Assembly (NCBI GenBank): GCA_903871775.1
Contig: CAIQIA010000002.1
Span: 1-64,000, forward strand
DNA length: 64,000 bases
Direction: 5' to 3'
Source: an uncultured cyanobacterium
GTDB taxonomy: Bacteria > Cyanobacteriota > Cyanobacteriia > PCC-6307 > Cyanobiaceae
The number at the start of each line of letters is the position of its first letter. Within the stretch, counting starts at the first letter, position 1. Below the pieces are notes generated by a model that worked only from the letters and a program-made list of their open reading frames with translations, was not told the DNA's origin and did no database searches. Shown piece after piece: positions 32,380 through 50,457 of the stretch. The position numbers and the translations under genes were made by a program.

Positions 32380-33336
32380 GTGGATCCCCAGCTGCTGCGG
32401 AACAGCCTCCGGCTGGCCGTGACCATCTTCCTGACGGCGGCCCTGGCCGTGTGGAGCGAACGGATCGCCTACGTCTGGTACCCCATCACCGCGGCCGTGG
32501 TGGTGGTCGATGACAACGACGACCGCACCTTTGCTGCCGCCTCCGCCCGGGTGCTCGGCACCCTGATGGGTGGTGTGGTGACCTTTCTGGTGCACACGCT
32601 GCTGAGCGGCTGGCCCGGGGTGCTGGTGTCGCTGCTGCTGATGATCCCGATCCTGCGCCTGTTCGGCTGGCAGTCGGGCCTTGGCACCGCAGGCCTGGTG
32701 AGCGTCATGTTCCTGATGATCCCGTCCCATGTCGCCCTCGACTGGAGCTACGCCTTCAACCGGGCCCTCGACACGGCGGTGGGCTGTCTTGTGGCCATCG
32801 GCGTGGGCCTGGTGTTCTGGCCCCGCAACAGCGACGCCGAGCGGCAACAGATCGACGCCAGCCTGCGCCGTCGCCTCGAGGGGCAACTGCAGGCCTACGG
32901 CGGCTGGCTGCGGGGCGACCATCCCCAGCCGGCCCCCCTCAGCCCGGCGCCGCTGACCGCCGACCTGCTGCAGCTCGAAGACCTGATCGCCGTGCAGCGC
33001 CGCGGCCCCCTGCGGCAGCAGCGGCTGCTGCGGCCCTGGGAGCGGCGGCTGGTGGCCTGGCAGCAGGTGCTCTCCCATTGGGTGGCCTGGGAGCGGCTGC
33101 TGCAGGAGCTGCCCCCCCAGCCCCCGGGCCAGGCCAACCCCCTGCAGGCAGCCATCGACGGGCTGGCGGCCCAGCTGGCCGGCGAACGGCGGCGGCTGCC
33201 CCCCCGCGATCCCGCCGCCTGGCAGGCCCTGGCCCTCCGCTCCCGCTGGCCCCTGTTGCCCCTGCTGGCCGTGGCCGAAGAACTGCGGCCCCTGCAGGCC
33301 CATCTGGCGACCGTTGCCCGGCCCCTGCCGTGCTGA
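32380..33336 (+). CDS. FUSC-family membrane protein (first of a pair)
   Basis: 318 residues from a GTG. The N-terminal half has about six membrane helices, with the FUSC/aromatic-acid-exporter pattern (RLAVTIFLTAALAVW, AYVWYPITAAVVVV, AARVLGTLMGGVV-like ARVLGTLMGGVVTF). The C-terminal half is a soluble helical domain rich in Leu/Gln/Arg. Its stop overlaps the next start (TGATG). Related proteins export aromatic acids or other small organics; the substrate is unknown. Confidence 0.82.
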   Translation: MDPQLLRNSLRLAVTIFLTAALAVWSERIAYVWYPITAAVVVVDDNDDRTFAAASARVLGTLMGGVVTFLVHTLLSGWPGVLVSLLLMIPILRLFGWQSGLGTAGLVSVMFLMIPSHVALDWSYAFNRALDTAVGCLVAIGVGLVFWPRNSDAERQQIDASLRRRLEGQLQAYGGWLRGDHPQPAPLSPAPLTADLLQLEDLIAVQRRGPLRQQRLLRPWERRLVAWQQVLSHWVAWERLLQELPPQPPGQANPLQAAIDGLAAQLAGERRRLPPRDPAAWQALALRSRWPLLPLLAVAEELRPLQAHLATVARPLPC

Positions 33337-34364
33337 TGAACCGTCGCGAGCTGCGCCAGGCGCTCACCGCCGGCCTGGGCAATGCCTTCGCGGTGCTCAG
33401 CGGTCTGCCCTACGGCTACTACGTGCCCCTGGCGGTGCTGGCCGTCGGCGCCGACAGCTACGGCGGTTCCCTGAAGCTCGGTCGCCAGCGGTTGCTGGGC
33501 ACCCTGCTGGGGTCGGTGCTGCTGGTGGTGGGCTCGAAGGGGCTGGAGGGGGTGCCGATGCCCCTGGGTCTCGCGATCACCCTCGGGGGCCTGCGGCTGC
33601 TGGGGGGCTGCCTGGGCCTGCAGGTGGGCTACAAGGTGGGGGGGCTGGTGGTGGTGATGGGCTGGCTGGCCCACAGCGGTCAGCTCGATGCCTGGGTGCC
33701 GATGCGGCTGTTCTGGACCGCCTTCGGGGTGGTGATCAGCCTGGTGAGCGTGCGGCTGTTCTGGCCTGCGTCAGGGCTCGATCAGCTCCTCGCCGATTAC
33801 CGACTGCTGCTGGCTGACCTGCGCCGCACCTGCCGGACCCTGGCGGACCGTTCAGCGCCGGTCACCACCGCCGACCAGCGGGCCCTGCGCCGCAGGCTGC
33901 TGGCGGTGCGCAAGCGCCTGCCGACCCTGGCCGAGGAGCTGGGCACCAACCCCCGACGCCATCCCGCCTACCGGCTGATGCTGGCCCTCAACGAGGCGGC
34001 CTCACGGCTGATCAGCTGCATCGGCGGCCTCGGTCGCCAGGCCGCCGCCGTCGAGGAGGTGCGGCTGCTGGAGCGGCTGCACGGGGCCGAACGGGATCTG
34101 CTGCTCAGCCTTGAAGTCCGGCTGCAGACCTGGGAACGGTGCCTCGAGGGGCGCCGGCCGGGGGGCGGATTGCCGGACCCACCGGGGGCCCCCTTCACCA
34201 GTCCGGCCAGCTGGAACGACCTCGGCCGGGAGCTGAACGATCCCCTGCAGTCGCAGGCCTCCCTCGACACTCTTGAACGGATCGCCGGCCGGCTGGTGCT
34301 CTGCCGCCAGGCGCGCCAGGCGATGGTCGAGGCCGAACGCCAGTGGCAGGGCGTGGGGCCCTGA
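33336..34364 (+). CDS. FUSC-family membrane protein (second of a pair)
   Basis: 342 residues, same architecture as the preceding gene: membrane half (1-160: LPYGYYVPLAVLAVGADSYG, RQRLLGTLLGSVLLVVGSKG, RLFWTAFGVVISLVSVRLFW), then a long soluble helical half. The overlapping start shows coupled translation, so the two probably form one complex. No periplasmic adaptor is in the operon, though a HlyD gene lies convergent downstream. Confidence 0.82.
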   Translation: MNRRELRQALTAGLGNAFAVLSGLPYGYYVPLAVLAVGADSYGGSLKLGRQRLLGTLLGSVLLVVGSKGLEGVPMPLGLAITLGGLRLLGGCLGLQVGYKVGGLVVVMGWLAHSGQLDAWVPMRLFWTAFGVVISLVSVRLFWPASGLDQLLADYRLLLADLRRTCRTLADRSAPVTTADQRALRRRLLAVRKRLPTLAEELGTNPRRHPAYRLMLALNEAASRLISCIGGLGRQAAAVEEVRLLERLHGAERDLLLSLEVRLQTWERCLEGRRPGGGLPDPPGAPFTSPASWNDLGRELNDPLQSQASLDTLERIAGRLVLCRQARQAMVEAERQWQGVGP

Positions 34365-34381
34365 GCGACCCCTGGAACCCC

Positions 34382-34573
34382 TCAGCCCGGCGGCCGCGAT
34401 GACCACCAGCGCTCGAGCCGGTAACCAAGAATCACCAGCAGCACCACCAGCCAGAACCAGAGTTCCGGGGCGTTGGCGTTGCAGAGAATCAGCAGCAGCA
34501 CCAGTTCGGCCACCAGCCAGGGCAGCTCCTGGCGGAGCAGGGGGCCGGGGGAGGGGAGGGAAGGCCGGGCCAT
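34382..34573 (-). CDS. small membrane protein downstream of hlyD
   Basis: 63 residues: a short polar N-terminus and two close hydrophobic helices (about 18-32 and 37-50, PWLVAELVLLLILCNA and LWFWLVVLLVILGYRLERWW), with a basic end. It starts 3 nt after the hlyD stop, so it is cotranscribed. It may be an accessory of the export complex; this is inference. Confidence 0.65.
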   Translation of the reverse strand: MARPSLPSPGPLLRQELPWLVAELVLLLILCNANAPELWFWLVVLLVILGYRLERWWSSRPPG

Positions 34574-34576
34574 GGC

Positions 34577-35830
34577 TCAGGGGAAGGGGCGGTAGCCGCC
34601 GGTGAGGGAGCGCCAGCCGGGGATCACGTAGCTCAGGGGTGTGCGCCACTCCACGTAGGCGTGGGTCGTGACCGTGAGCCCCTCACGCACCGGGAAGACG
34701 GCGCTGCCGCGGGAGATGGTCCAGCGGAACCCGTCGCGGCTGGAGGGGTCATGGTCGAGGCGGACCTCGGCCCGCATCACGGGGCCGTTGCGGGTGAGTT
34801 CGCGGGCCAGCTGCGGGTTGCCGGTGGTGGTCGAGACGTCCTCCTCGGTGGCGGGGAGGCTGAGCACCTGGGTGACGCTGCCGATGATGCCCCCGAAGCG
34901 GCCCCGCTGCTTCCACTGGGGCACCACCTCCACCGGCAGTCCCAGGGGCAATCGCCGGGCGTCGGCGGGGGCGAAGTAGGCCACCGCCCTGAGGTGGCCG
35001 GTGCCGGCACCGTCATCCTCGGCACGGCCGATGGTGCCCAGCCGCTGGCCCAGGCCCACGGTCTGGCCGGGGATGACCTGCAGATCCAGCACCCGGCCGT
35101 CGCGCTCGGCCACCACCTGGCCGTCGTAGGCGATGCGGGCTTCGCTGACGCGGATCTGACGCTGCAGATCATCGATGCGGTAGCGGCGCTGCTGGGCCTC
35201 GGTCTCGATCTCGAGCCGCACCCGGGCCAGATCGGCCAGCAGCCGCCGACGGTCGATCGCCACCCCATCGAGGTTGACGCTCGTGGTGGTCAGCCCCTGC
35301 TCGGTGGTCACCACCTCGGGGGAGAGGGGGGCCACCACCTCCCGGCGGCTGAGCCATTCGAGGTTGCGCAGCTTGCCGGCGTAGGTCTGCTGCAGTTCGC
35401 GGTAGCGCCGGCCGTCATCGCTCAGCTTCGCCAGGGCGGTGGTGACCTCCTGGGTCTCGGTCTGCAGCCGTCGCCGGTCCCGCTCCGTCAGGTCGCGGTC
35501 GATGCGTTCGAGCTGGGCCAGGTTGCCCCGTTGCTGCTGCAGCTGCCGGTCGAGCACGGGCAGCCGCAGCTCCATCAGCACCTGTCCCCTGGTCACCGGC
35601 GACCCCACCTGCACCGCCAGCGAACGGATCTGGCCGGCGGCCCGGGCATTGAGCACCCCGGCGTTCCCCGGCGGCAGCAGCACGCCCTCGCCGATCACCT
35701 CGGTCGGCACCGACCAGAACAGGGCCCAGGCCGCCAGGCCGCCGGCCACCGCCAGCTGGGCGAGCCCCACCAGCCGGTGGTCCCGCCGGGTCTCGTCCCC
35801 GGGGGCAGGCAGTGACGGGGCAGACGTCAT
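34577..35830 (-). CDS. HlyD-family periplasmic adaptor (NHLP-type secretion protein)
   Basis: 417 residues. One membrane anchor (about 24-42) is followed by the biotinyl-lipoyl-like half motif LNARAAGQIRSLAVQVGSPV, a long coiled coil (about 85-235), and the second half motif DGRVLDLQVIPGQTVGLGQR. A beta-barrel domain follows. The size and the late segment resemble adaptors annotated with NHLP bacteriocin export, although no peptidase-ABC gene is near. It is divergent from a tolC gene, suggesting a tripartite pump. Confidence 0.88.
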   Translation of the reverse strand: MTSAPSLPAPGDETRRDHRLVGLAQLAVAGGLAAWALFWSVPTEVIGEGVLLPPGNAGVLNARAAGQIRSLAVQVGSPVTRGQVLMELRLPVLDRQLQQQRGNLAQLERIDRDLTERDRRRLQTETQEVTTALAKLSDDGRRYRELQQTYAGKLRNLEWLSRREVVAPLSPEVVTTEQGLTTTSVNLDGVAIDRRRLLADLARVRLEIETEAQQRRYRIDDLQRQIRVSEARIAYDGQVVAERDGRVLDLQVIPGQTVGLGQRLGTIGRAEDDGAGTGHLRAVAYFAPADARRLPLGLPVEVVPQWKQRGRFGGIIGSVTQVLSLPATEEDVSTTTGNPQLARELTRNGPVMRAEVRLDHDPSSRDGFRWTISRGSAVFPVREGLTVTTHAYVEWRTPLSYVIPGWRSLTGGYRPFP

Positions 35831-35906
35831 GGGGCCAGCGGGGCTGGGGGAAGGATGGATGGCACATCAGGCAGACTGCCGCAGATTGTCTGTCAGGGGA
35901 GGGGGC

Positions 35907-37565
35907 GTGGGCCGGAACTGGCGCATGGCCTGGGCCCTGGCCGCTGGTCTGCTGACAGCGCCGCTGGGGCCTGGGCCGGCCGCCGCCGCACCGGCCACCG
36001 GGGGCACCGCCGTGCTCGAGCGCCGCTGGCAGCGGCTGAACCAGGACCTGCAGGAGCTGGTGCGGCCGGCATCGGCGCCGGTGCCGGGCAGCGGCCAGCG
36101 GCCCCTGAGCCTGGAGCAGGCCCTGGCCGTCGCCTTTGCCGCCAACCCTGACCTGCAGGCCCAGCGCGAGCTGGTGGCGGCGGCCGAGGCCGACCTCCAG
36201 GCCGCCGAGGGGAGCTACTGGCCGCGGCTGAGCGCCGTGGCCGGCGCCGGGGCCCTGTGGGAGAAGCAGCTCAACGTCGTCCCCCTCAGCAACGACAGGC
36301 TGGGCCTGGGCCCCAACTTCTCAGCCGACGGGCTGATGGGGGCCGACGGTCAACCGACCAGCGGCGCGTTCTATGTGCCGTCGGGCGGCCGCGTGTCGCT
36401 TGACCTCACCCAGGCAGCGGCAGCGGCCGGCCTGGTCTTCGGTTACGACCTGCTCGACCTCAGCCGCACCCCGAAGGTGGCGGCGGCCCGGGCACGGCGC
36501 GACAGCCTGCGCCAGGCCTATGGCGCCCAGCTGCGCCTGCTGCAGCTGCAGGTGAGCGAGGCCTACTACCAGCTGCAGCAGGCCGACCAGACGGTGCGCA
36601 TCCAGGAGGCCGCCGTGCGCAACGACGCGGTGATCCTGGCCGATGCCCGCGATCTGAAACAGGCCGGCCTGGTGCCGCGGTTGGATGTGCTGCGCCGCCA
36701 GGCGATCGAGGCCGGCGACCGGCAGCTGCTGATCCAGGCCGAGGCCGATCGCAGCGTGGCCCGCCGGCAGCTGGCGGTGCTGCTGCGCCTCGAGCCGCAG
36801 GTCACCCCCCTGGCCAGCGATCCGATCACCCTGCTGCCCCCCTGGCCCCTCGACCTGGAGGCCAGCCTGCGGGCCGCCGTGGCCGACAACCCCGAACTGG
36901 AGGAACTGCTGGCCAGCCGCACCGCCCTGCTGCGCCAGCGGGACGCCACCCGGGCCGGCCTGCTGCCGCGGCTCGGCCTGGTGGCCGCGGCGGGGGGCGG
37001 CGGCCGCACCACACGGGCCGACGCCATCCGGCCCGAGAACGGCGGCTGCTGCGCCAGCTCGGCCGTGGTGCCGATCCAGAACACCGGCAGCGCCGACTGG
37101 TCCGTGGGCCTCAACCTCAGCTGGCTGCTGTTCGACGGCGGCACCACCGCCGCCCAGGCCCGCAGCCTCGAGCGCCAGGCGGCCGCCGTGCAGCAGCAGC
37201 TCACGGCCCGGCGGGATGCCATCCAGCTGCGGCTCGAGACGGCCTTCGTGAACCACACCGCCAGCCTCGCCCGGCTCGATGCCGCCCAGCAGGAGGTGAC
37301 CGCGGGCCTCGAGGCCTTCCGCGACGTGCGCCTGCGCTACCAGAGCGGCCTCTCGAGCGAGACCGACCTGTCGATCACCCAGGAGCGGCTGATCAGCAGC
37401 CTGCTGCGGCGGCTGAAGGCGACGGTGGGGGTGAATCTCACCTACGCGCGGCTGCTGCGCGAGCTGCTGCCGATGCCCACAAATCCCGCCACACCCCTCA
37501 CCCCCCGGCTCACCTGGCCGCCGGCAGCACCCCCAGAGCCTGCAGGGGAGCCAGGTCCCCGCTGA
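35907..37565 (+). CDS. TolC-family outer membrane efflux protein
   Basis: 552 residues from GTG 35907 (ATG 35859 or 35925 are alternatives). A signal peptide (about 7-30, ending GPAAAAPA) precedes two OEP repeats: LSLEQALAVAFAANPDLQAQ...LRLLQLQVSEAYYQLQQADQ, and LEASLRAAVADNPELEELLA...WSVGLNLSWLLFDGGTTAAQ. The latter is the typical TolC strand. An unusual Cys pair occurs in the insert ENGGCCASSAVV. It lies head-to-head with hlyD. The last 56 bp overlap the FAD-oxidoreductase gene. Confidence 0.9.
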   Translation: MGRNWRMAWALAAGLLTAPLGPGPAAAAPATGGTAVLERRWQRLNQDLQELVRPASAPVPGSGQRPLSLEQALAVAFAANPDLQAQRELVAAAEADLQAAEGSYWPRLSAVAGAGALWEKQLNVVPLSNDRLGLGPNFSADGLMGADGQPTSGAFYVPSGGRVSLDLTQAAAAAGLVFGYDLLDLSRTPKVAAARARRDSLRQAYGAQLRLLQLQVSEAYYQLQQADQTVRIQEAAVRNDAVILADARDLKQAGLVPRLDVLRRQAIEAGDRQLLIQAEADRSVARRQLAVLLRLEPQVTPLASDPITLLPPWPLDLEASLRAAVADNPELEELLASRTALLRQRDATRAGLLPRLGLVAAAGGGGRTTRADAIRPENGGCCASSAVVPIQNTGSADWSVGLNLSWLLFDGGTTAAQARSLERQAAAVQQQLTARRDAIQLRLETAFVNHTASLARLDAAQQEVTAGLEAFRDVRLRYQSGLSSETDLSITQERLISSLLRRLKATVGVNLTYARLLRELLPMPTNPATPLTPRLTWPPAAPPEPAGEPGPR

Positions 37566-40909: not shown

Positions 40910-43900
40910 ATGGCCATTTCGCGACGCCTGCAGCCGTTCCTCTCCATGGGGCGCCTGTCGGGGCCCGATCCTGCGACCCTCGACCAGGCCGTGGTGAGCG
41001 GCAACCGGCTGTATGTCGTCGCCGGCACTGACCTGATCGACCGGCGTCTGTGGGTGTCAGACGGCACCGCGGGGGGAACCGGAGTCATCGCCGCCGGTGG
41101 CGGCCCGGCCGATCCGCGGGAACCCACCCAGTTGACGCCGTTCCAGGGTGGTGTGGCGTTCACCGCCCTCGACGGCCTGTCTGGCCGGGAACTCTGGAGC
41201 AGCGACGGCACCACCGCCGGCACCCGGCGAATCGCTGACCTCGGCAACGGGGCCCTGGGCGCCTACCCCACGGAACTGACGGCGGCAGGCTCAACGCTCT
41301 TCTTCGTGCCCTCTCCTGACTACCGCCCCCAGCTGGAGCTCTGGGCCAGCGATGGCAGCGCGGCAGGCACCCGGCTGGTGAAGGTGCTGCCGAGCCTCGA
41401 ACTGGGCACCCAGGTCGCCAACCTCACCGCAGACAGCAGCGGTTCTGGGGTCTACTTCACGGTCGACGACAGCAGCGCCAGCCAGCTGTGGCGCGGCGAC
41501 GGCACCACGACGGGAACCACGCTCGTCAGCGAGTTCTCGCCGACCCTCTACCTCTACGGCAACGCAGGCCGGGAGATGACCAGCGCCGGTGGTCGTCTGT
41601 TCTTCATCGCCCACGACCCCGTGGTCGGCCAGGAGCTCTGGGTGTCGGACGGCACCTCCCAGGGCACACGGCTGCTGAAAGACATCAACCCCGGCCTCAG
41701 CAGTGCCTACCCCGGCAGCTACCCCACCGACCTGACGGTCATGAACGGGCTGCTGTTCTTCGTGGCCCTGGATGAGGAGTCCGGCCTGGAACTCTGGAGA
41801 AGTGACGGCACCGAAGCAGGCACGGTGATCGTCAAGGACATCAACCCCGATCCCGGCTTCGGGTCCTATCCCACAGGACTCACCGTGGTTGGGCAGTCGC
41901 TGTTCTTCACCGCCGTCAGTGAAGGTCCTGCGGGCTTCAGCTTCGACATCTGGACCACGGATGGCACCGAGGGCGGCACCCACCGTGTCACCAACCTGAA
42001 CACCGACGGGACCAGCGGCTTCTACCCCAGGCCCCTGGTCGCTGCCGGCTCCAGGCTCCTGTTCGTGTCCGATTCGCCGGAGCACAACGATGAGATCTGG
42101 AGCACGGACGGCACTGCGGCGGGCACCTCGGTGCTGACGCGGGTCGTGCCCGCCTCCGAACACGATGCATCGCTCAACTCAAGCCTGATCTTCAGTGCCC
42201 AGGTGGTGAATGGACAGCTGTTCTACGAGACGCTCCTCTCGTCAGACCTGATCGCTGTACCCCTGGGTGCAGGCCCGCAGGAGACACCGCTCTCAACGGT
42301 CGGTGGCGTCGCGCTCCTCCAGGACCCCGGCAACGGCCGGTTCTGGGTCAGCCGCGATGGCGGACCAGCCTCGGCCATCACCTGGGGAGGAGCCCCGCTG
42401 GCGGGCACCACCCTGCCCGACTGGCAGCTGCTCGCCGCCGCAGGCGGTGGGGAGGGCAATTCCCTGCTCTGGCGCCACCGGACCTCCGGCGAGATCGTCA
42501 CCTGGAGCCTTGATGACAACTGGGTCTCCGTGGGAGGCAGCGCACCCATGGCGCCATCATCAGCGGAAGGTCGTAAGGCTGAACACCGTTTTCAGATCGA
42601 CCTGAACGGCGATGGGGTTGTGGGAGCACCAACCTCAACGCTCTCCAGGATCGCAGGACAGCAACTGCTGCGGCGCAGCCGCGACGGCGGCATGACGGTG
42701 GTCAGCCCCGGAGCCGACAGCCGCGATCTCCAGTGGGGCGGTCAACCCCTGAAGGTCGACGACAGCCGCCTCCGCGGCTGGACCCCCTTGGCAGCGGCAC
42801 GCGTCGCCAACACCAACCAGCTCCTCTGGAAGCAAGCCGCCACCGGCAACCTCACCACCTGGACCTTCGACGACCGCTGGAACCCCACCGGCGGCACCCC
42901 CGTCTTCAACCCCTCCTCTGACGACGCCTACGCCCTCGAATCCTCCTTCAGTTACGACGCCAACGGTGATCGTTCCGTTGGCAATCCCTACGTCCCCATC
43001 GCCTCCTCCGGCAACGCCTCCCTCCTCCGTCACGGCTCCTCTCACCAGCTCGCCTTCCGCTCCGCCGGCCTCAACCTCAACCTCTCCTGGGGCTCGGCTC
43101 CCCTCCTCGACGCCGATCCACGCCTCCCCGACTGGTCTGCCATCGCCGCCGCTCGCCTGAACGGCCTTCCCTCCCTCCTCTGGCGTCAGGCCACCACCGG
43201 CAACCTCGCCACCTGGTCCTTCGACAACTCCGGCAACGCCTCCGGCGGCACTCCTCCCGTCGCCCCCTCCTCCGCCGACGCCCTCTCCCTCGAATCCGCC
43301 TTCCGTTGTGACGCCAACGGCGATGGACGCATCGGCTCCGACGGCTCCCTCAGATCTCTCCCCATCCCCCTCCCACAGCCTCTCTCCCTCCTCCAGAACG
43401 CCAACCGCTGGTCCGTCTCCACTGGCACCTCCTCCTCCTCCCTCATCTGGGCCGGCACTCCCATCGCCGTCGGCGACTCCCGCCTCCCGGGCTGGGCTCC
43501 CGCCGCCGCCGCCATCCTCGACGGCGTCAACTCCCTCCTCTGGACCAACTCCTCCCTCTCCCTCGCCGCCGTCTGGTCCTTCGATTCCTCATGGAATGCC
43601 ACCGGCGGGGCTCCCGCCGTTCCCCTCTCCTCCAACGACGCCCGCGATCTCGAATTCCTCTTCAACACCGATCTCAACGGCGACCGCTCCATCGGCTCCC
43701 CCTTCTCCTCCCTCGCCGCCGGTTCCGACCTCTCCCTCCTGCGCCGCAACGACGACCAGTCCCTCGTCATCGCCTCCTCCCGCGGTTCCCTCTCATCCCT
43801 CTCCTGGGGTGGTGCTCCCCTCAAGGCCAACGACTCCCGTCTCCAGGGCTGGACCGCCCTCGCCGCCGCACGCGTCGCCAACACCAACCAGCTCCTCTGG

Positions 43901-44917
43901 AAGCAATCCGGCTCCGGCAACCTCACCACCTGGATCTTCGATGACCGCTGGAACCCCACCGGCGGCACTCCCATCGTCAACCCCTCCTCCAACGACGCCT
44001 ACGCCCTCGAATCCGCCTTCGCCATCGACGCCAACGGCGATCGCTCCATCGGCAACCCCTACAACACCCTCGCCGTCACTCCCTCCGCAGCCCTGCTCCG
44101 CCACGGCTCCTCCGGTCGCCTCGGCATCAGCAGCAACGGCGCATCTCCCATCCCCCTCAGCTGGGGTGGTTCCGACCTCCTTGAGGTCGACCCTCGCCTC
44201 TCCGGTTGGACTCCCCTTGCCGCCGCACGCGTCGCCAACGCCAACCAGCTCCTCTGGAAGCAAGCCAACTCCGGCAATCTCACCACCTGGACCTTCGATG
44301 ACCGCTGGAACCCCACCGGCGGCACACCCATCGTCTCCCCTTCCTCCGACGATGCCATCGCCCTCGAAGACTCCTTCGCCGTCGATGCCAACGGCGACGG
44401 CGTCATCGGCGAACCCCTCTCACCCATCGAGCGCCTCCGTTCACGCATCCTCGCCGCTGATCCCAACGCCAATGCCCGCGATCCCTTCTCCGCTGTGGTC
44501 AGCGGCGGAGCCTTCGCCGACAGCCTGATCGCTCCGGCCGGCGACAACGTTCTGATCAGCGGCTACGACCCAGTCACCGGCATCGCCCTGCCGGCAGGGG
44601 CCATCGACAACCTCGATGCCGGCCTGGCCACCTCCCTTTGCACGGTGCTGATCGCCAGCACCACCGACCAGCCCTTTGCCGACGATGGCGACAGCGGTTA
44701 CACGCTGGTGCGCAACCTCGACACGACCCGCGACGATCTGGTGCTGCCCGCCTCCGGATTCACCACAGCGGCGCGCAGCCTCAACTTTGAGGGATCCACC
44801 GTCACCGGCCTCGGCATCCACATCGACAGCAACACCAACGGCCTGTACGACAGCGGCGACAACCTCATCGCCATGCTCGCCGGGGTCACCGCCTCGCCGC
44901 GCATCGTTCAGATCTGA
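40910..44917 (+). CDS. giant ELWxxDGT / tryptophan-rich repeat protein, putative surface or secreted
   Basis: 1335 residues, no Sec signal. Residues 45-410 hold eight ELWxxDGTxxGT units ([72 protein letters not shown]), probably an eight-bladed beta-propeller. Residues 465-1170 hold six units of 115-120 residues with LLWK...TGNLxTWxFD and a calcium-loop-like DANGDRSIG, resembling the Synechocystis tryptophan-rich domain (W_rich_C). Residues 1180-1335 form a C-terminal module shared with the next gene. Such proteins are usually exported by type I systems through a C-terminal signal; that is inference. Codon usage changes near 42,900. Confidence 0.85.
41040..42140 (+). repeat. eight ELWxxDGT-encoding repeats
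   Basis: Units of about 45-60 codons, each with an aromatic-hydrophobic strand, then (E/D)(L/I)W-x-x-DGT-x-x-GT. They are diverged in DNA, in contrast to the tryptophan-rich units that follow, which suggests an older array. Confidence 0.8.
42300..44420 (+). repeat. six tryptophan-rich repeat units (344-367 bp period)
   Basis: The CTSCTCTGG motif for LLW recurs at 42464, 42831, 43175, 43535, 43892 and 44249. Units 2, 5 and 6 are nearly identical in DNA around LLWKQ and [12 protein letters not shown], while units 3 and 4 are diverged. Each unit ends in a D-x-N-G-D-x-x-(I/V)-G loop. Confidence 0.85.
44638..44917 (+). repeat. 280-bp direct repeat, copy 1 (shared C-terminal module)
   Basis: Matches 50178-50457 with 5 mismatches in 280 positions by direct comparison. 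It encodes the last 92 residues of the giant protein, from [20 protein letters not shown] to the terminal QI. Confidence 0.95.
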
Positions 44918-44977
44918 GCAGCCGCAGCAGCCCTACCGACAGAAACGATGCCCAGCACAAGAATCTGCAGGGACTGT

Positions 44978-44983
44978 TAAGAT
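44978..44983 (+). promoter_or_regulatory. putative -10 box of the second giant gene
   Basis: TAAGAT lies 41 nt before the ATG at 45025 in the 107-bp gap between the giant genes, in locally AT-richer sequence. No clear -35 box. Confidence 0.35.
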
Positions 44984-45024
44984 CCCGCCGTTTACCTCAT
45001 GCCCCCCATGGGGCCGCCTCGCGT

Positions 45025-48000
45025 ATGCCCACCTCCTCTGCTCTGCAGCGCCTGGAAACTCTGCTGCCTGATTGGTGGCAAAAGCTACAGGAATGGGCCG
45101 GCACGGGAGAACTGACGGCGGCCGCCAGCCAGGCCCTGCAACTGACCGGACTACCAACAGCCCTGGTGGATCTCAACAGCCAGCTGGCCAGTGGCGACAT
45201 GACGGGGCTGCCATCGATCGAACTGCTGTCAGGCGAAGCGATGGCAGGGGCTTGGGGTGCCTATGCCACGAGCAACGGCACGATTTACCTCAACGCAGAC
45301 TGGCTGGACTCAGCCGATGCACAGGCGGTGATCGCCGTGCTGACCGAAGAACTGGGTCATCACCTGGATGCGTTGTGCAACAGCAGCGACACCTCGGGGG
45401 ATGAAGGCGCACAGATGGCGGCACTGCTGCTGCAGCTGCCGACCAAGGTGGAACCAGAGGACGATTGGGGTGTGGTGACAACCGATCAAGGTCCCGTGAG
45501 TGTGGAACGAGCCACCTCGAGCGGCACAACACCACCGGTGATCAAGGGGCTGACCATCGAGACACCCATTTTGGATGCAAGCCAACCTGGCAGAGCATTA
45601 ATGACGTTCACGATGACAGCCACGCTGAATTCAACGAGTGGAAATTCTTTTTTATCTTCTGCCCTTACGTTCGAGAATACAAAGGGCCAAAATTATCATG
45701 TTATCGCAGGTCCCATCAGTGTTGATGGATCCACATACACCTTTCGCGGAAGCGCTTGGGTGAACCCTGCATCATCTGGCCTCTATGAATTATTAGGCAT
45801 ATCCATTAGTGACAACAATGGCAACGAGCTTTATGCTAACTCAGATGATCCAGACTGGCCCCAGTTTCTCGAACAAGCCGGCATTAACAACTCTTCTTTT
45901 ACAGTACTGAACAACAATCCAAATCTAGATGTTACACCACCCTCTCTCAAAGGGTTTGCACTCTCAAGCACCAGCTTCAACCTGAATGATCCTGGAGCAC
46001 TCATCAGCGCCACTGTCCAACTGAAAGACAGCCAGGGTGGACTTGGCTTCGCGGGTGCTCTAACGAATCAGAATTGGTATGCATCCTTTAGCAACGGCTC
46101 TCGTGATTTTACCCTCGGCGGCGGAGTCAACATCGGCAGCACATATTCAGGCACCCTGAAAGCGACCTACGGAAAGCTGAATATCTGGAATAATGAAACT
46201 TTTAACTTCGATGAGGATCCCGAAAGCTCTGCTGGTCGATACGTCTTAAGTTCCCTGGCTCTTGAGGATGCAGCGGGCAACCAATTCGGGCGTGATTCAT
46301 CACAACCTGAGTGGTCATCATTTCTTTCGCAGAGCAACATCACGCAGACATTCATTGACGTTATCAATGGCCCGAGTCCAGATCCAGCCCCGAAAGACAC
46401 CGAGGCCCCTGTCATCACAGCACTAAGCTTATCTCAATCAACACTTGACCTGTCCCAACAGGATTATAGCATTCCCTACGTGACCGCAGGGTTTAGAGAT
46501 AATGCCTCAGGAATTAAACGAATAGCCTTGCTCTATAGCTCAACAGTAGGCCGGGGGGAATTTGAGTTTTCGTCTGAAGTCAACTATAATGAGGCCTTCA
46601 TAGACGGCAGCAAGCAGACCGGTAGCATGATTGTTAGGCTAGATTCAACCACTTGGTCCGGTCCACAATCCATACGACCTGGAAAATATGAATTGGTTTC
46701 GGTTACAGCAAGAGATGATGCAAATAACTACTTTGGAGCAAATACAGCAAGTCCAGACTGGCCAGCCTTTCTTGCGTCAGCCAACGTTAAAGACACAAGC
46801 CTGACCATTATTAACCCTAACTTCATCGCAGACAATACTGCCCCCAACCTCACGAGCCTGGAGTTTCCATCAAAGGTCTTTGACCGTGGTCAGTCTAAGG
46901 GATTTATGTTCCAGGTTAAAGCTGGCTATCAAGACGATCTCTCGGGCTTAGATTATATCGGTTTAGATTTTCAAAGCCCAGACGGCAAGTCTTCTACTTC
47001 TTGGTCATCAGGCACAGACAATTTCTTCAACGCAGATGATTATTTTTTCCCAGGTAGCACTCAACTCAAAGGGTCCACCTCACTAAGTTTCGCCCGTAGT
47101 ATCGACAGAGGCATCACTGGCACCTACTCGCTTCAAAGAATCTTCATCAAAGACCATTCAGGCAATGGCTTTTCAATCAGCAAAAGCGACCCCGGATGGC
47201 AATCGTACCTTAACTCTCGCGGAATAACGCAAACAAGCTATGAATTGATTGATTCCACCCTTGCAAATCCCGCTCAAAATCAACTCACCATTGAGACCCT
47301 TACACCTTCTCTGCCAGAGGGCAACGCTGGCCTCACACCTTTTACATTCAAAATCAAACGCAGTGGCGACCTCTCCGGAAGATCATTCGTTGAATGGAAA
47401 GTATCTACGCAAAGCTCAGGGCAATCAGGGGATGGTTACGACTTCAGGAGTGGATGGTCTAGAACTGGTGACGCTGTCTTCGCCTCAGGGGAATCCGAAA
47501 AAGCCATCACAGTTGACGTCAATGGGGACACAGAAACTGAACTCGATGAAGTTTTTAGCGTTGAACTTGCAACTCCTCAAGGCGCCAGCCTTGGCATCCA
47601 GAAAAGTGCAAGTGCCACCATTCTCAATGATGACGGTGTTTTAACAACCTCAGTTCTTACAGTTTCCGCCAGCCCATCATCCGTCGCAGAAGATGGTCCC
47701 ACCAACATCATCTTCACGTTCTTTCGGACTGGTGCAACAACCAACGCATTGACGGTAAATTACACCGTCTCTGGCTCCGCCACCCTTGGTGCTGACTACA
47801 CCGGCATTGCAGCCTCACCGTCCACTAAATCCATTTCATTCGCTGCAGGATCAGCCACCACCACGCTCATCGTTGATCCCACCACCGATACCACACTCGA
47901 ACCAGAAGAAACCATTACCCTCCGCCTAGAAGCAGGCACCGGCTACATCCTCGGCTCCTCTTCTCAGGCCTCAGCCACCATCACCAACGACGACATCCTT

Positions 48001-50457
48001 GACGAGACCATCAATAGCGCATCAGGTGTTGCTCTTCTCATCGAACGGCCTTCCAATCGCTTCCTGATCCGCAGCAACAACCAGCGCTCCTTCATCTCTC
48101 GTTCTGGATCTCAGATCACCAACACCACCTATCCAGACTGGACACCCATCGCCGCCATCGCCGACGCCAAAGGCAACGCCCTCCTCTGGAAAAACTCGCG
48201 CACCGGTGATCTCCTCTCCTGGTCCATGACATCCCAGTGGGCCTACAGCAAGGACGATCTCTTCACAACACTTGGCTCCAACGCCTCCCGCGACCTTGAA
48301 CGCCGTTTCCTCCTTGATCTCGACAACAGCGGCCTGATCGGCCCCATCAGTGCCTCCACCGCCTCCACCCTCGGCATCCTCCCCTCCTCCTTCCGCTATG
48401 CCGTCGCCTCCAATGGCGCCGCACCCGTTGCCATCTCACGCTTCGGCAGCTCCGTCACCACAGCCACCTTCCCTGACTGGGCCCCCATCGCCTTTGCTTC
48501 CGATGCCAAAGGCAACGCCCTCCTCTGGAAAAACTCGCAGACCGGCGCTCTCCTCTCCTGGGCCATGAACGCCCAGTGGGCCTACACCGCTGATCTCGTC
48601 GTCGACGAATCCCGCTTCCTCTCACCAATCAGCTCCTCTTCCTCTTCCACCCTCGGCATCCTTCCCTCCTCCCTCCGCTACGCCGTCGCCTCCAACGGCA
48701 CCTCACCCGTTGCCATCTCACGCTTCGGCAGCTCTGTCACCACAGCCACCTTCCCTGACTGGGCTCCCATCGCCTCTGCTTCCGATGCCAAAGGCAACGC
48801 CCTCCTCTGGAAAAACTCGCAGACCGGCGCTCTCCTCTCCTGGGCCATGAACCCCCAGTGGGCCTACACCGCTGATCTCGTCGTCGACGAATCCCGCTTC
48901 CTCTTACCAATCAGCTCCTCTTCCTCTTCCACCCTCGGCATCCTTCCCTCTTCCCTCCGCTACGCCGTCGCCTCCAATGGCGCCGCAGCCGTTGCTCTCT
49001 CACGCTCAGGCAGTTTCCTCAACTCCTCCTCCTACACCGATTGGGCTGCCATCGCCGCCACCGCCGACGCCAAAGGCAACGCCCTCCTCTGGAAAAACTC
49101 TCGCACCGGTGATTTCCTCTCCTGGTCGATGAATGACCAATGGGCTTACACCGCTGACGACCTCTTCGCCAAACCAGGCTCGGCAGCCATCTCTTCCCTT
49201 GAGCGGCGCTACTCCACTGACCTCGACAACAATGGCCTGATCGGTCCCATCAGTTCCTACAACGACGTTTCCCTCAGCCTGCTGGCTTCCTCCAAGGTCT
49301 ACGCCATCTCCAGCATCCTCCTCAACCCCGTCCAGGCCACCCGCAACGGCAGCCCCCTCTCTCCCTCCTCCTACACCGACTGGAGCGCCATTGCCGTCGC
49401 CTCCAACCTCAGCGGCAATCGTCTCCTCTGGAAAAACTCACGCACCGGCGATCTCCTCTCCTGGTCCATGAACTCCCAGTGGGCCTACAGCGCTGATGAT
49501 CTCTTCGCCAAGCCGGGGTCCGCAGCCGTCAAGGACCTTGAAAGACGCTTTTCCATTGACTTTGATGCCGATGGTCGTGTCGGCACCCTCGCCCCTGTGG
49601 GCCCCCCAGGTTTCTGCTTCCTCGGCACACTCCCCAACTCCAACGCCTACGCCATCTCCAAAGACGGCGCAGCTCCAATCACCGTCACCCGCAACTCTGC
49701 TCCCCTCTCCTCGTCCTCCTTCACGGACTGGACTGCCATCGCCGCTGGTTTCGACGGGCTCACAAATCGGCTCCTCTGGAAAAATTCACGCACCGGTGAT
49801 CTCCTCTCCTGGTCCATGACAGCCCAGTGGGCCTACAGCAAGGACGATGTCTTCGCCAGGCCAGGCACTCCTGCCATCTCCGACCTGGAACGGCGGTTCA
49901 CCATCGACCTTGACGGTGATGGCCGCATTGCTTCCCTCAACGTCTACACGTTCAGCGTTTCCTCCGATCAACTGTTGCGCGACAAGATCCTCGCCGCCGA
50001 ACCCAACGCCAACGCCCGCGATCCCTTCTCCGCCATCCTCACTGGCAGCCCCTCCGCCGATCGTCTGTTCGCTCCAGCCGGCAGCAACATCCTGATCAGC
50101 GGCCACGACCTGATCACCGGTCTCGCCCTCCCCGCCGCTGCCGTCGACGTGCTCGACTGCGGCAATCTCTCCGACCGTTGCACGGTGCTGATCGCCAGCA
50201 CCACCGACCAGCCCTTTGCCGACGATGGCGACAGCGGTTACACGCTCGTGCGCAACCTCGACACGACCCGCGACGATCTGGTGCTGCCCGCCTCCGGATT
50301 CACCTCAGCGGCGCGCAGCCTCAGCTTTGAGGGATCCACCGTCACCGGCCTCGGCATCCACATCGACAGCAACACCAACGGCCTGTACGACAGCGGCGAC
50401 AACCTCATCGCCCTGCTCGCCGGGGTCACCGCCTCGCCGCGCATCATTCAGATCTGA
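45025..50457 (+). CDS. giant multidomain surface or secreted protein (Ig-like, Calx-beta, tryptophan-rich repeats)
   Basis: 1810 residues, no Sec signal. Residues 1-170 form a cyanobacterial head domain with VLTEELGHHLDALCNSSDT, a zincin-like helix whose first His is Glu. Residues 171-745 are four Ig-like repeats of about 145 residues, each closing with GN...SDPxW..FL. Residues 752-990 are two Calx-beta domains (calcium-binding beta sandwiches: TLEPEETITLRLEAGTGYIL). Residues 995-1640 are six tryptophan-rich units (ALLWKNSRTGDLLSWSM), two of them shortened. Residues 1640-1810 repeat the C-terminal module of the preceding gene. DNA of the Ig-like part is AT-rich. Likely a type I-secreted adhesin; function inferred. 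Confidence 0.85.
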   Translation: MPTSSALQRLETLLPDWWQKLQEWAGTGELTAAASQALQLTGLPTALVDLNSQLASGDMTGLPSIELLSGEAMAGAWGAYATSNGTIYLNADWLDSADAQAVIAVLTEELGHHLDALCNSSDTSGDEGAQMAALLLQLPTKVEPEDDWGVVTTDQGPVSVERATSSGTTPPVIKGLTIETPILDASQPGRALMTFTMTATLNSTSGNSFLSSALTFENTKGQNYHVIAGPISVDGSTYTFRGSAWVNPASSGLYELLGISISDNNGNELYANSDDPDWPQFLEQAGINNSSFTVLNNNPNLDVTPPSLKGFALSSTSFNLNDPGALISATVQLKDSQGGLGFAGALTNQNWYASFSNGSRDFTLGGGVNIGSTYSGTLKATYGKLNIWNNETFNFDEDPESSAGRYVLSSLALEDAAGNQFGRDSSQPEWSSFLSQSNITQTFIDVINGPSPDPAPKDTEAPVITALSLSQSTLDLSQQDYSIPYVTAGFRDNASGIKRIALLYSSTVGRGEFEFSSEVNYNEAFIDGSKQTGSMIVRLDSTTWSGPQSIRPGKYELVSVTARDDANNYFGANTASPDWPAFLASANVKDTSLTIINPNFIADNTAPNLTSLEFPSKVFDRGQSKGFMFQVKAGYQDDLSGLDYIGLDFQSPDGKSSTSWSSGTDNFFNADDYFFPGSTQLKGSTSLSFARSIDRGITGTYSLQRIFIKDHSGNGFSISKSDPGWQSYLNSRGITQTSYELIDSTLANPAQNQLTIETLTPSLPEGNAGLTPFTFKIKRSGDLSGRSFVEWKVSTQSSGQSGDGYDFRSGWSRTGDAVFASGESEKAITVDVNGDTETELDEVFSVELATPQGASLGIQKSASATILNDDGVLTTSVLTVSASPSSVAEDGPTNIIFTFFRTGATTNALTVNYTVSGSATLGADYTGIAASPSTKSISFAAGSATTTLIVDPTTDTTLEPEETITLRLEAGTGYILGSSSQASATITNDDILDETINSASGVALLIERPSNRFLIRSNNQRSFISRSGSQITNTTYPDWTPIAAIADAKGNALLWKNSRTGDLLSWSMTSQWAYSKDDLFTTLGSNASRDLERRFLLDLDNSGLIGPISASTASTLGILPSSFRYAVASNGAAPVAISRFGSSVTTATFPDWAPIAFASDAKGNALLWKNSQTGALLSWAMNAQWAYTADLVVDESRFLSPISSSSSSTLGILPSSLRYAVASNGTSPVAISRFGSSVTTATFPDWAPIASASDAKGNALLWKNSQTGALLSWAMNPQWAYTADLVVDESRFLLPISSSSSSTLGILPSSLRYAVASNGAAAVALSRSGSFLNSSSYTDWAAIAATADAKGNALLWKNSRTGDFLSWSMNDQWAYTADDLFAKPGSAAISSLERRYSTDLDNNGLIGPISSYNDVSLSLLASSKVYAISSILLNPVQATRNGSPLSPSSYTDWSAIAVASNLSGNRLLWKNSRTGDLLSWSMNSQWAYSADDLFAKPGSAAVKDLERRFSIDFDADGRVGTLAPVGPPGFCFLGTLPNSNAYAISKDGAAPITVTRNSAPLSSSSFTDWTAIAAGFDGLTNRLLWKNSRTGDLLSWSMTAQWAYSKDDVFARPGTPAISDLERRFTIDLDGDGRIASLNVYTFSVSSDQLLRDKILAAEPNANARDPFSAILTGSPSADRLFAPAGSNILISGHDLITGLALPAAAVDVLDCGNLSDRCTVLIASTTDQPFADDGDSGYTLVRNLDTTRDDLVLPASGFTSAARSLSFEGSTVTGLGIHIDSNTNGLYDSGDNLIALLAGVTASPRIIQI
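45527..47265 (+). repeat. four Ig-like repeat units in an AT-rich segment
   Basis: Four diverged units of about 145 codons begin TPPVIKGL, TPPSLKGF, TEAPVITALSL and NTAPNLTSLEF. Each ends with D..GN followed by a DPxW...(F/Y)L helix and a closing strand. The DNA is much poorer in GC than both flanks. Confidence 0.8.
48367..48930 (+). repeat. 282-bp exact-period tandem duplication
   Basis: 48367-48648 and 48649-48930 have the same length and differ at about 11 positions. A third, more diverged copy begins at 48931. The duplicated unit is an in-frame 94-codon tryptophan-rich unit that lacks the calcium-loop ending present in the longer units. Confidence 0.92.
50178..50457 (+). repeat. 280-bp direct repeat, copy 2 (shared C-terminal module)
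   Basis: Copy of 44638-44917 with 5 differences, ending at the same stop codon context. It is unusually conserved relative to the rest of the two genes. Confidence 0.95.

Follow-up and report, generated by a model that had tools for sequence, protein, structure and literature searches.

Near-identical ends in two tandem repeat-protein genes of an uncultured cyanobacterium: a probable gene-conversion tract within a putative export domain

Two large genes that follow each other in the genome of an uncultured cyanobacterium of the Cyanobiaceae raise the question of how proteins that begin so differently can end almost identically. The genes lie in tandem on the forward strand of the window (the whole stretch of 64,000 nucleotides that was analysed), with 107 bp between their frames; gene A (40910-44917) codes for 1335 amino acids and gene B (45025-50457) for 1810. 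A preliminary description of the locus had reported unrelated N-terminal halves, six tryptophan-rich units in each gene and five differing sites between the last 280 nt of both (44638-44917 and 50178-50457). It had proposed that this pattern points to gene conversion or recent exchange and to a C-terminal domain under strong constraint, plausibly a sorting or secretion signal. The observations hold, as exactly five sites differ, but the proposals fare unequally. Our main reading, to which we give a probability of about 0.7, is that A and B are modular, probably secreted proteins with a common C-terminal cassette, that the tail of this cassette is a recent conversion tract, and that both proteins would be exported by a type I system and folded by calcium.

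The front ends do differ in kind, with ELWxxDGT repeats in gene A against Ig-like repeats and two Calx-beta domains in gene B. The ELWxxDGT region (41045-42160, limits approximate and taken from the translation) comprises eight stretches that match TIGR04534 with 278.6 bits (cut-off 65), a model with no match in gene B. The tryptophan-rich units are those of Pfam W_rich_C (PF07483), which scores 285.7 bits in gene A and 207.8 bits in gene B (cut-off 26.2). Six of them are found in gene A (42332-44410), each with an EF-hand-like D-x-N-G-D loop at its end, and a terminal domain of 161 residues follows (44432-44914). Gene B opens with a module that carries an EELGHHLD motif (45025-45540) and continues with Ig-like repeats (45541-47241), a label given from the sequence, as they lack a Pfam match; these repeats are common to a paralog elsewhere in the genome, gene C, with 29% identity. 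Next come a first Calx-beta domain (47344-47634) and a second one, to about 47990 (PF03160, 55.3 bits), six W_rich_C units, two of them short (48049-49929), and a terminal domain of 160 residues (49975-50454).

Gene B is also a compositional mosaic, with a G+C content of about 46% in the middle and 66% at the end, in a window of 70%. The Ig-like repeat region lies mostly at 45-50%, and the same range prevails over the middle of the gene (45400-47700), where third-position G+C is 0.41-0.52. This low G+C suggests a foreign origin for the Ig-like and Calx-beta part. The opening module has a metallopeptidase-like look, without a Pfam match over the cut-off, and a similar one, judged by eye, opens a protein of another genus (genome G558); EELGHHLD and GDEG motifs are common to both modules (L097:1876-2100 in G558).

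All 19 W_rich_C units above the cut-off in this genome belong to three genes (A with six, B with six and C with seven), and a survey of 300 genomes in the family detected such units in 40. Most of them close with an EF-hand-like loop (DANGDG and variants), which suggests that they may bind calcium. The predicted fold of a unit is of moderate confidence (pLDDT 79) and consists of beta strands and one helix; it had no match in the PDB at E <= 0.001, and a sequence search of solved structures with a unit returned chance-level matches only. In another genome, one array (L062, G009:C1:1011160-1013883) holds eight units with an exact spacing of 345 bp, six of them with equal score, and is probably the product of a very recent tandem expansion.

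The near-identity of A and B is confined to part of the terminal domain. The homologous domain spans about 160 residues and is longer than the near-identical part, which covers the last 91 codons and the stop. When the ungapped 480-nt tails are compared, 58 differences fall in the first 203 nt and five in the last 277, a spread with a hypergeometric P of about 8e-19 and a segment score that was reached by none of 20000 shuffles. The boundary is sharp: dS is 0.014 and dN 0.020 over the distal 91 codons, against 0.49 and 0.31 over the 69 codons just upstream, still within the terminal domain. Beyond the stop codons the likeness ends, with 26 of 100 nt identical. One of the five changes in the tract is synonymous (one in about 71 synonymous sites) and four are non-synonymous. 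As the genome is a draft of 27 contigs, it might be asked whether the assembler copied one tail onto the other gene. However, such a collapse would yield identical copies, while the two tails differ at five sites and the longest stretch without a difference measures 88 nt, which a usual short read would span; additionally, the flanks of both copies are unique. We give almost no credence to an artefact of this kind.

The preliminary description had favoured strong constraint on the C-terminal domain, and exceptional purifying selection could in principle keep two C-termini alike; in fact, the seven proteins that carry the domain (see below) are all identical at 41 of its columns, so that some positions are constrained. 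The claim of strong constraint found no support in the comparison with the congener (genome G032, the sole other genome of the genus compared, 76% complete), where gene A has an ortholog at the corresponding position, immediately downstream of lipA. Over the distal 91 codons, gene A and this ortholog differ with dS 0.64, dN 0.24 and a dN/dS of 0.37, values to be set against dS 0.85, dN 0.20 and a ratio of 0.23 in the N-terminal ELWxxDGT region and dS 0.88, dN 0.31 and a ratio of 0.35 over the whole gene. Consequently, the distal tail is under no more constraint than the remainder of gene A. Protein selection cannot explain, moreover, why synonymous sites of the tract are near-identical too, and most of the few changes in it alter the protein. 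Exceptional selection is thus a highly improbable explanation for the pair.

By contrast, the suggestion of conversion or recent exchange is borne out by synonymous near-identity inside the tract, strong divergence just outside it and a pair that is closer than the true ortholog: within the tract, the dS of 0.014 between A and B compares with 0.64-0.68 to the ortholog of the congener. Since this ortholog has diverged over the same 91 codons like the rest of gene A, the near-identical end of A and B (their last 91 codons and the stop) is best read as a recent gene-conversion tract between tandem paralogs of the same strand, an interpretation that we regard as well supported by the sequence comparisons. 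As the two tracts are far closer to each other than A is to its ortholog, A and B were homogenised long after the split of the two species.

Conversion probably ran from A onto B, although trees of the two short parts of the domain leave the direction unsettled. A is favoured as the donor because the distal tail of B is as near to the A ortholog of the congener as that of A itself (dN 0.228 for B and 0.236 for A), whereas the proximal part of B is farther (0.397 for B and 0.201 for A). Of the four non-synonymous differences in the tract, three look derived in A and not in B; with A as the donor, these would be later changes. An ortholog of gene B was not found in the congener, whose genome is 76% complete.

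It could also be imagined that domain shuffling recently gave B the entire C-terminal cassette of A, with no conversion between existing homologs. The compositional mosaic of gene B fits such a history, and module swapping does seem to occur in the family. For instance, the W_rich_C array of gene A in this genome is collinear (70%) with that of a different protein of the congener, type D, which suggests a further module exchange in the past of the family. Nevertheless, A and B are also homologous, though strongly diverged, on the upstream side of the tract, both in the 69 codons that open the terminal domain and in the W_rich_C array, so B possessed a tail before its last part was overwritten. 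We therefore consider wholesale shuffling quite unlikely and retain conversion within existing homologs. A different and older tract is seen in the congener between A and D, where the last W_rich_C unit has a dS of 0.22 and the tract runs into the first residues of the terminal domain; the distal tails of these two genes have diverged normally (dS 0.88).

The preliminary description had suggested a search for the terminal domain at the end of otherwise unrelated large proteins. The search was positive: seven proteins carry the domain behind five kinds of front end, namely ELWxxDGT repeats (A and its ortholog), Ig-like repeats with Calx-beta domains (B), Ig-like repeats only (C), an FKBP-type isomerase domain with RTX repeats (D) and Calx-beta with RCC1 (the G558 protein). 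Gene C (G000:C4, L013:8886-13577), in the same genome, ends in a terminal domain with 50% identity, and its ortholog in the congener (L012) has the same neighbourhood. In type D (L011:2894-6460, G032:C26), W_rich_C units and the terminal domain follow the RTX repeats; a signal peptide is not evident in this protein. In the G558 protein, the terminal domain is preceded by Calx-beta, RCC1 and two W_rich_C units. A search of 400 genomes in the family found the domain in its close form only in this genome, in the congener and in G558; the other 41 genomes of the genus of G558 were without it. In all closed frames recovered, the match ends 0-22 residues before the stop. The lone internal case seen is a weak relative (L067, G018:C62; E 7e-5) inside a long repeat protein, with Ig-like repeats after it. 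A pattern-based search of the genome contigs with one tail returned nothing, as did a search of plasmid records, and a literature search on the family names yielded nothing useful.

Scans of the terminal domain alone against Pfam and NCBIfam gave nothing relevant, a sequence search of solved structures found nothing for it, and a structure prediction from two sequences was unusable (mean pLDDT 32). A profile of the domain, on the other hand, matches domains at the C-termini of other proteins from cyanobacteria, with E-values between 1e-8 and 1e-4 per genome; several of these proteins have RTX repeats. In hhalign, this profile aligned with six RTX C-terminal domains with a probability of 97.6 and a score of 76, while the best of 60 column-shuffled profiles reached 21.7 and the reversed profile 14; the comparison set had been gathered with the same profile, which makes the E-value optimistic, and the shuffles control for composition only. 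These matches point to the terminal domain as a divergent relative of cyanobacterial RTX C-terminal domains. The canonical GGxGxDxUx nonapeptides (PF00353) have no match in genes A, B and C and are present in their relative D. Two other genes with an RTX-type end may be mentioned here: a frame of 181 residues (L005, G070:C22) that holds little besides such a domain and lies between type IV pilin-like genes, and, in the same genome as A and B, a canonical RTX protein that consists of a subtilase with Calx-beta domains, a P-domain and an RTX end (L056:524-4561, G000:C23).

Kinship with RTX proteins bears on export. In RTX proteins, about 60 residues at the C-terminus form a secretion signal that is not cleaved and that type I exporters recognise; such proteins are abundant in cyanobacteria, and some of them take part in motility or form surface layers (PMC3034196). 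The genome has 36 RTX-repeat matches elsewhere, TolC-like channels above the Pfam cut-off and three pairs of ABC-transporter and HlyD-like genes. In the best pair (L053:2878-7604), the HlyB-type model TIGR01846 scores 725.2 bits against a cut-off of 725.55, and the adjoining HlyD-like gene is below its cut-off. No dedicated exporter adjoins genes A and B; the channel and adaptor genes in their vicinity (34.6-37.6 kb) lie beside a FUSC-type transporter. This group, formed by the FUSC-type transporter, a HlyD-like adaptor on the reverse strand and a TolC-like channel (33078-37562), lies 3-8 kb upstream of gene A and is probably a set for the efflux of small molecules. The proteins are acidic (pI 4.4-4.7 overall and 4.4-4.5 for A and B) and nearly free of cysteine, with two residues in A and four in B, and they showed no strongly hydrophobic N-terminal stretch in a simple hydropathy scan, as expected for type I substrates.

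A sorting or secretion signal, as first suggested, thus remains plausible, and to the terminal position in every closed frame we can add profile homology to RTX C-termini. We infer the secretion route, the partner exporter, the calcium folding and the surface function of A and B as follows. A type I exporter made of a HlyB-like ABC protein, a HlyD-like adaptor and a TolC-like channel would recognise the uncleaved C-terminal domain and pass the protein unfolded across both membranes; outside, calcium would fold the acidic repeats and produce a stiff surface or matrix protein. More tentatively, and at somewhat less than even odds, the domain of about 160 residues may be a type I export signal that is restricted to this clade, is absent from the catalogues and has lost its RTX repeats; together with the W_rich_C array it would move as a cassette from one unrelated front end to another, with recurrent conversion among members of the family. 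The domain could instead serve in cell-surface anchoring or assembly, with export by another route or signal. Separate modules for anchoring are known from some secreted proteins, the conserved core of the domain extends beyond the last 60 residues or so, and canonical RTX repeats have been lost from it, all of which speak for such a role. However, RTX C-termini are its nearest homologs, its position is terminal, and the simple scan offered no N-terminal stretch of the Sec type for the alternative route. We therefore hold anchoring to be unlikely and prefer the type I export signal.

What has been found is a further case of known kinds, that is, of RTX-type C-terminal domains, of W_rich_C proteins and of conversion between tandem paralogs. 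Its interest lies in a well-bounded gene conversion between giant repeat genes that can be dated relative to the split from a congener, and in the reminder that near-identical ends need not imply constraint. Additionally, the terminal domain is absent from family libraries and could aid the annotation of secreted proteins in this cyanobacterial family.

Concerted evolution of paralogs through gene conversion is known in prokaryotes, for instance in the cyanobacterial psbA and psbD genes (PMC6053082). As in those genes, paralogs of the same genome are here closer than orthologs, synonymous sites included; psbA and psbD evolve in this manner as whole genes, whereas in A and B only a tract of 280 bp within large modular genes is affected. 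Proteins with PF07483 (Tryptophan-rich Synechocystis species C-terminal domain) show other ends after the array in several other genomes inspected, while the extra terminal domain always follows it here. Gene A resembles ELWxxDGT proteins in its eight repeats and differs from them in that these are joined to a W_rich_C array and a terminal domain. Compared with RTX C-termini (those of cyanobacterial proteins with PF00353 and, distantly, of the serralysin type), the terminal domain has eroded glycine-aspartate nonapeptides and is without a Pfam or NCBIfam model of its own, but it has the same terminal position and the same order of motifs: G-x(4)-D-x-L followed by N-x-L-x-x-G, then I-D-x-L-x-x-G, a DYAxITDF-type segment, which corresponds to a stretch of 16 residues in the present domain, and D-x-N-x-N-G followed by D-x-L-I-A near the end.
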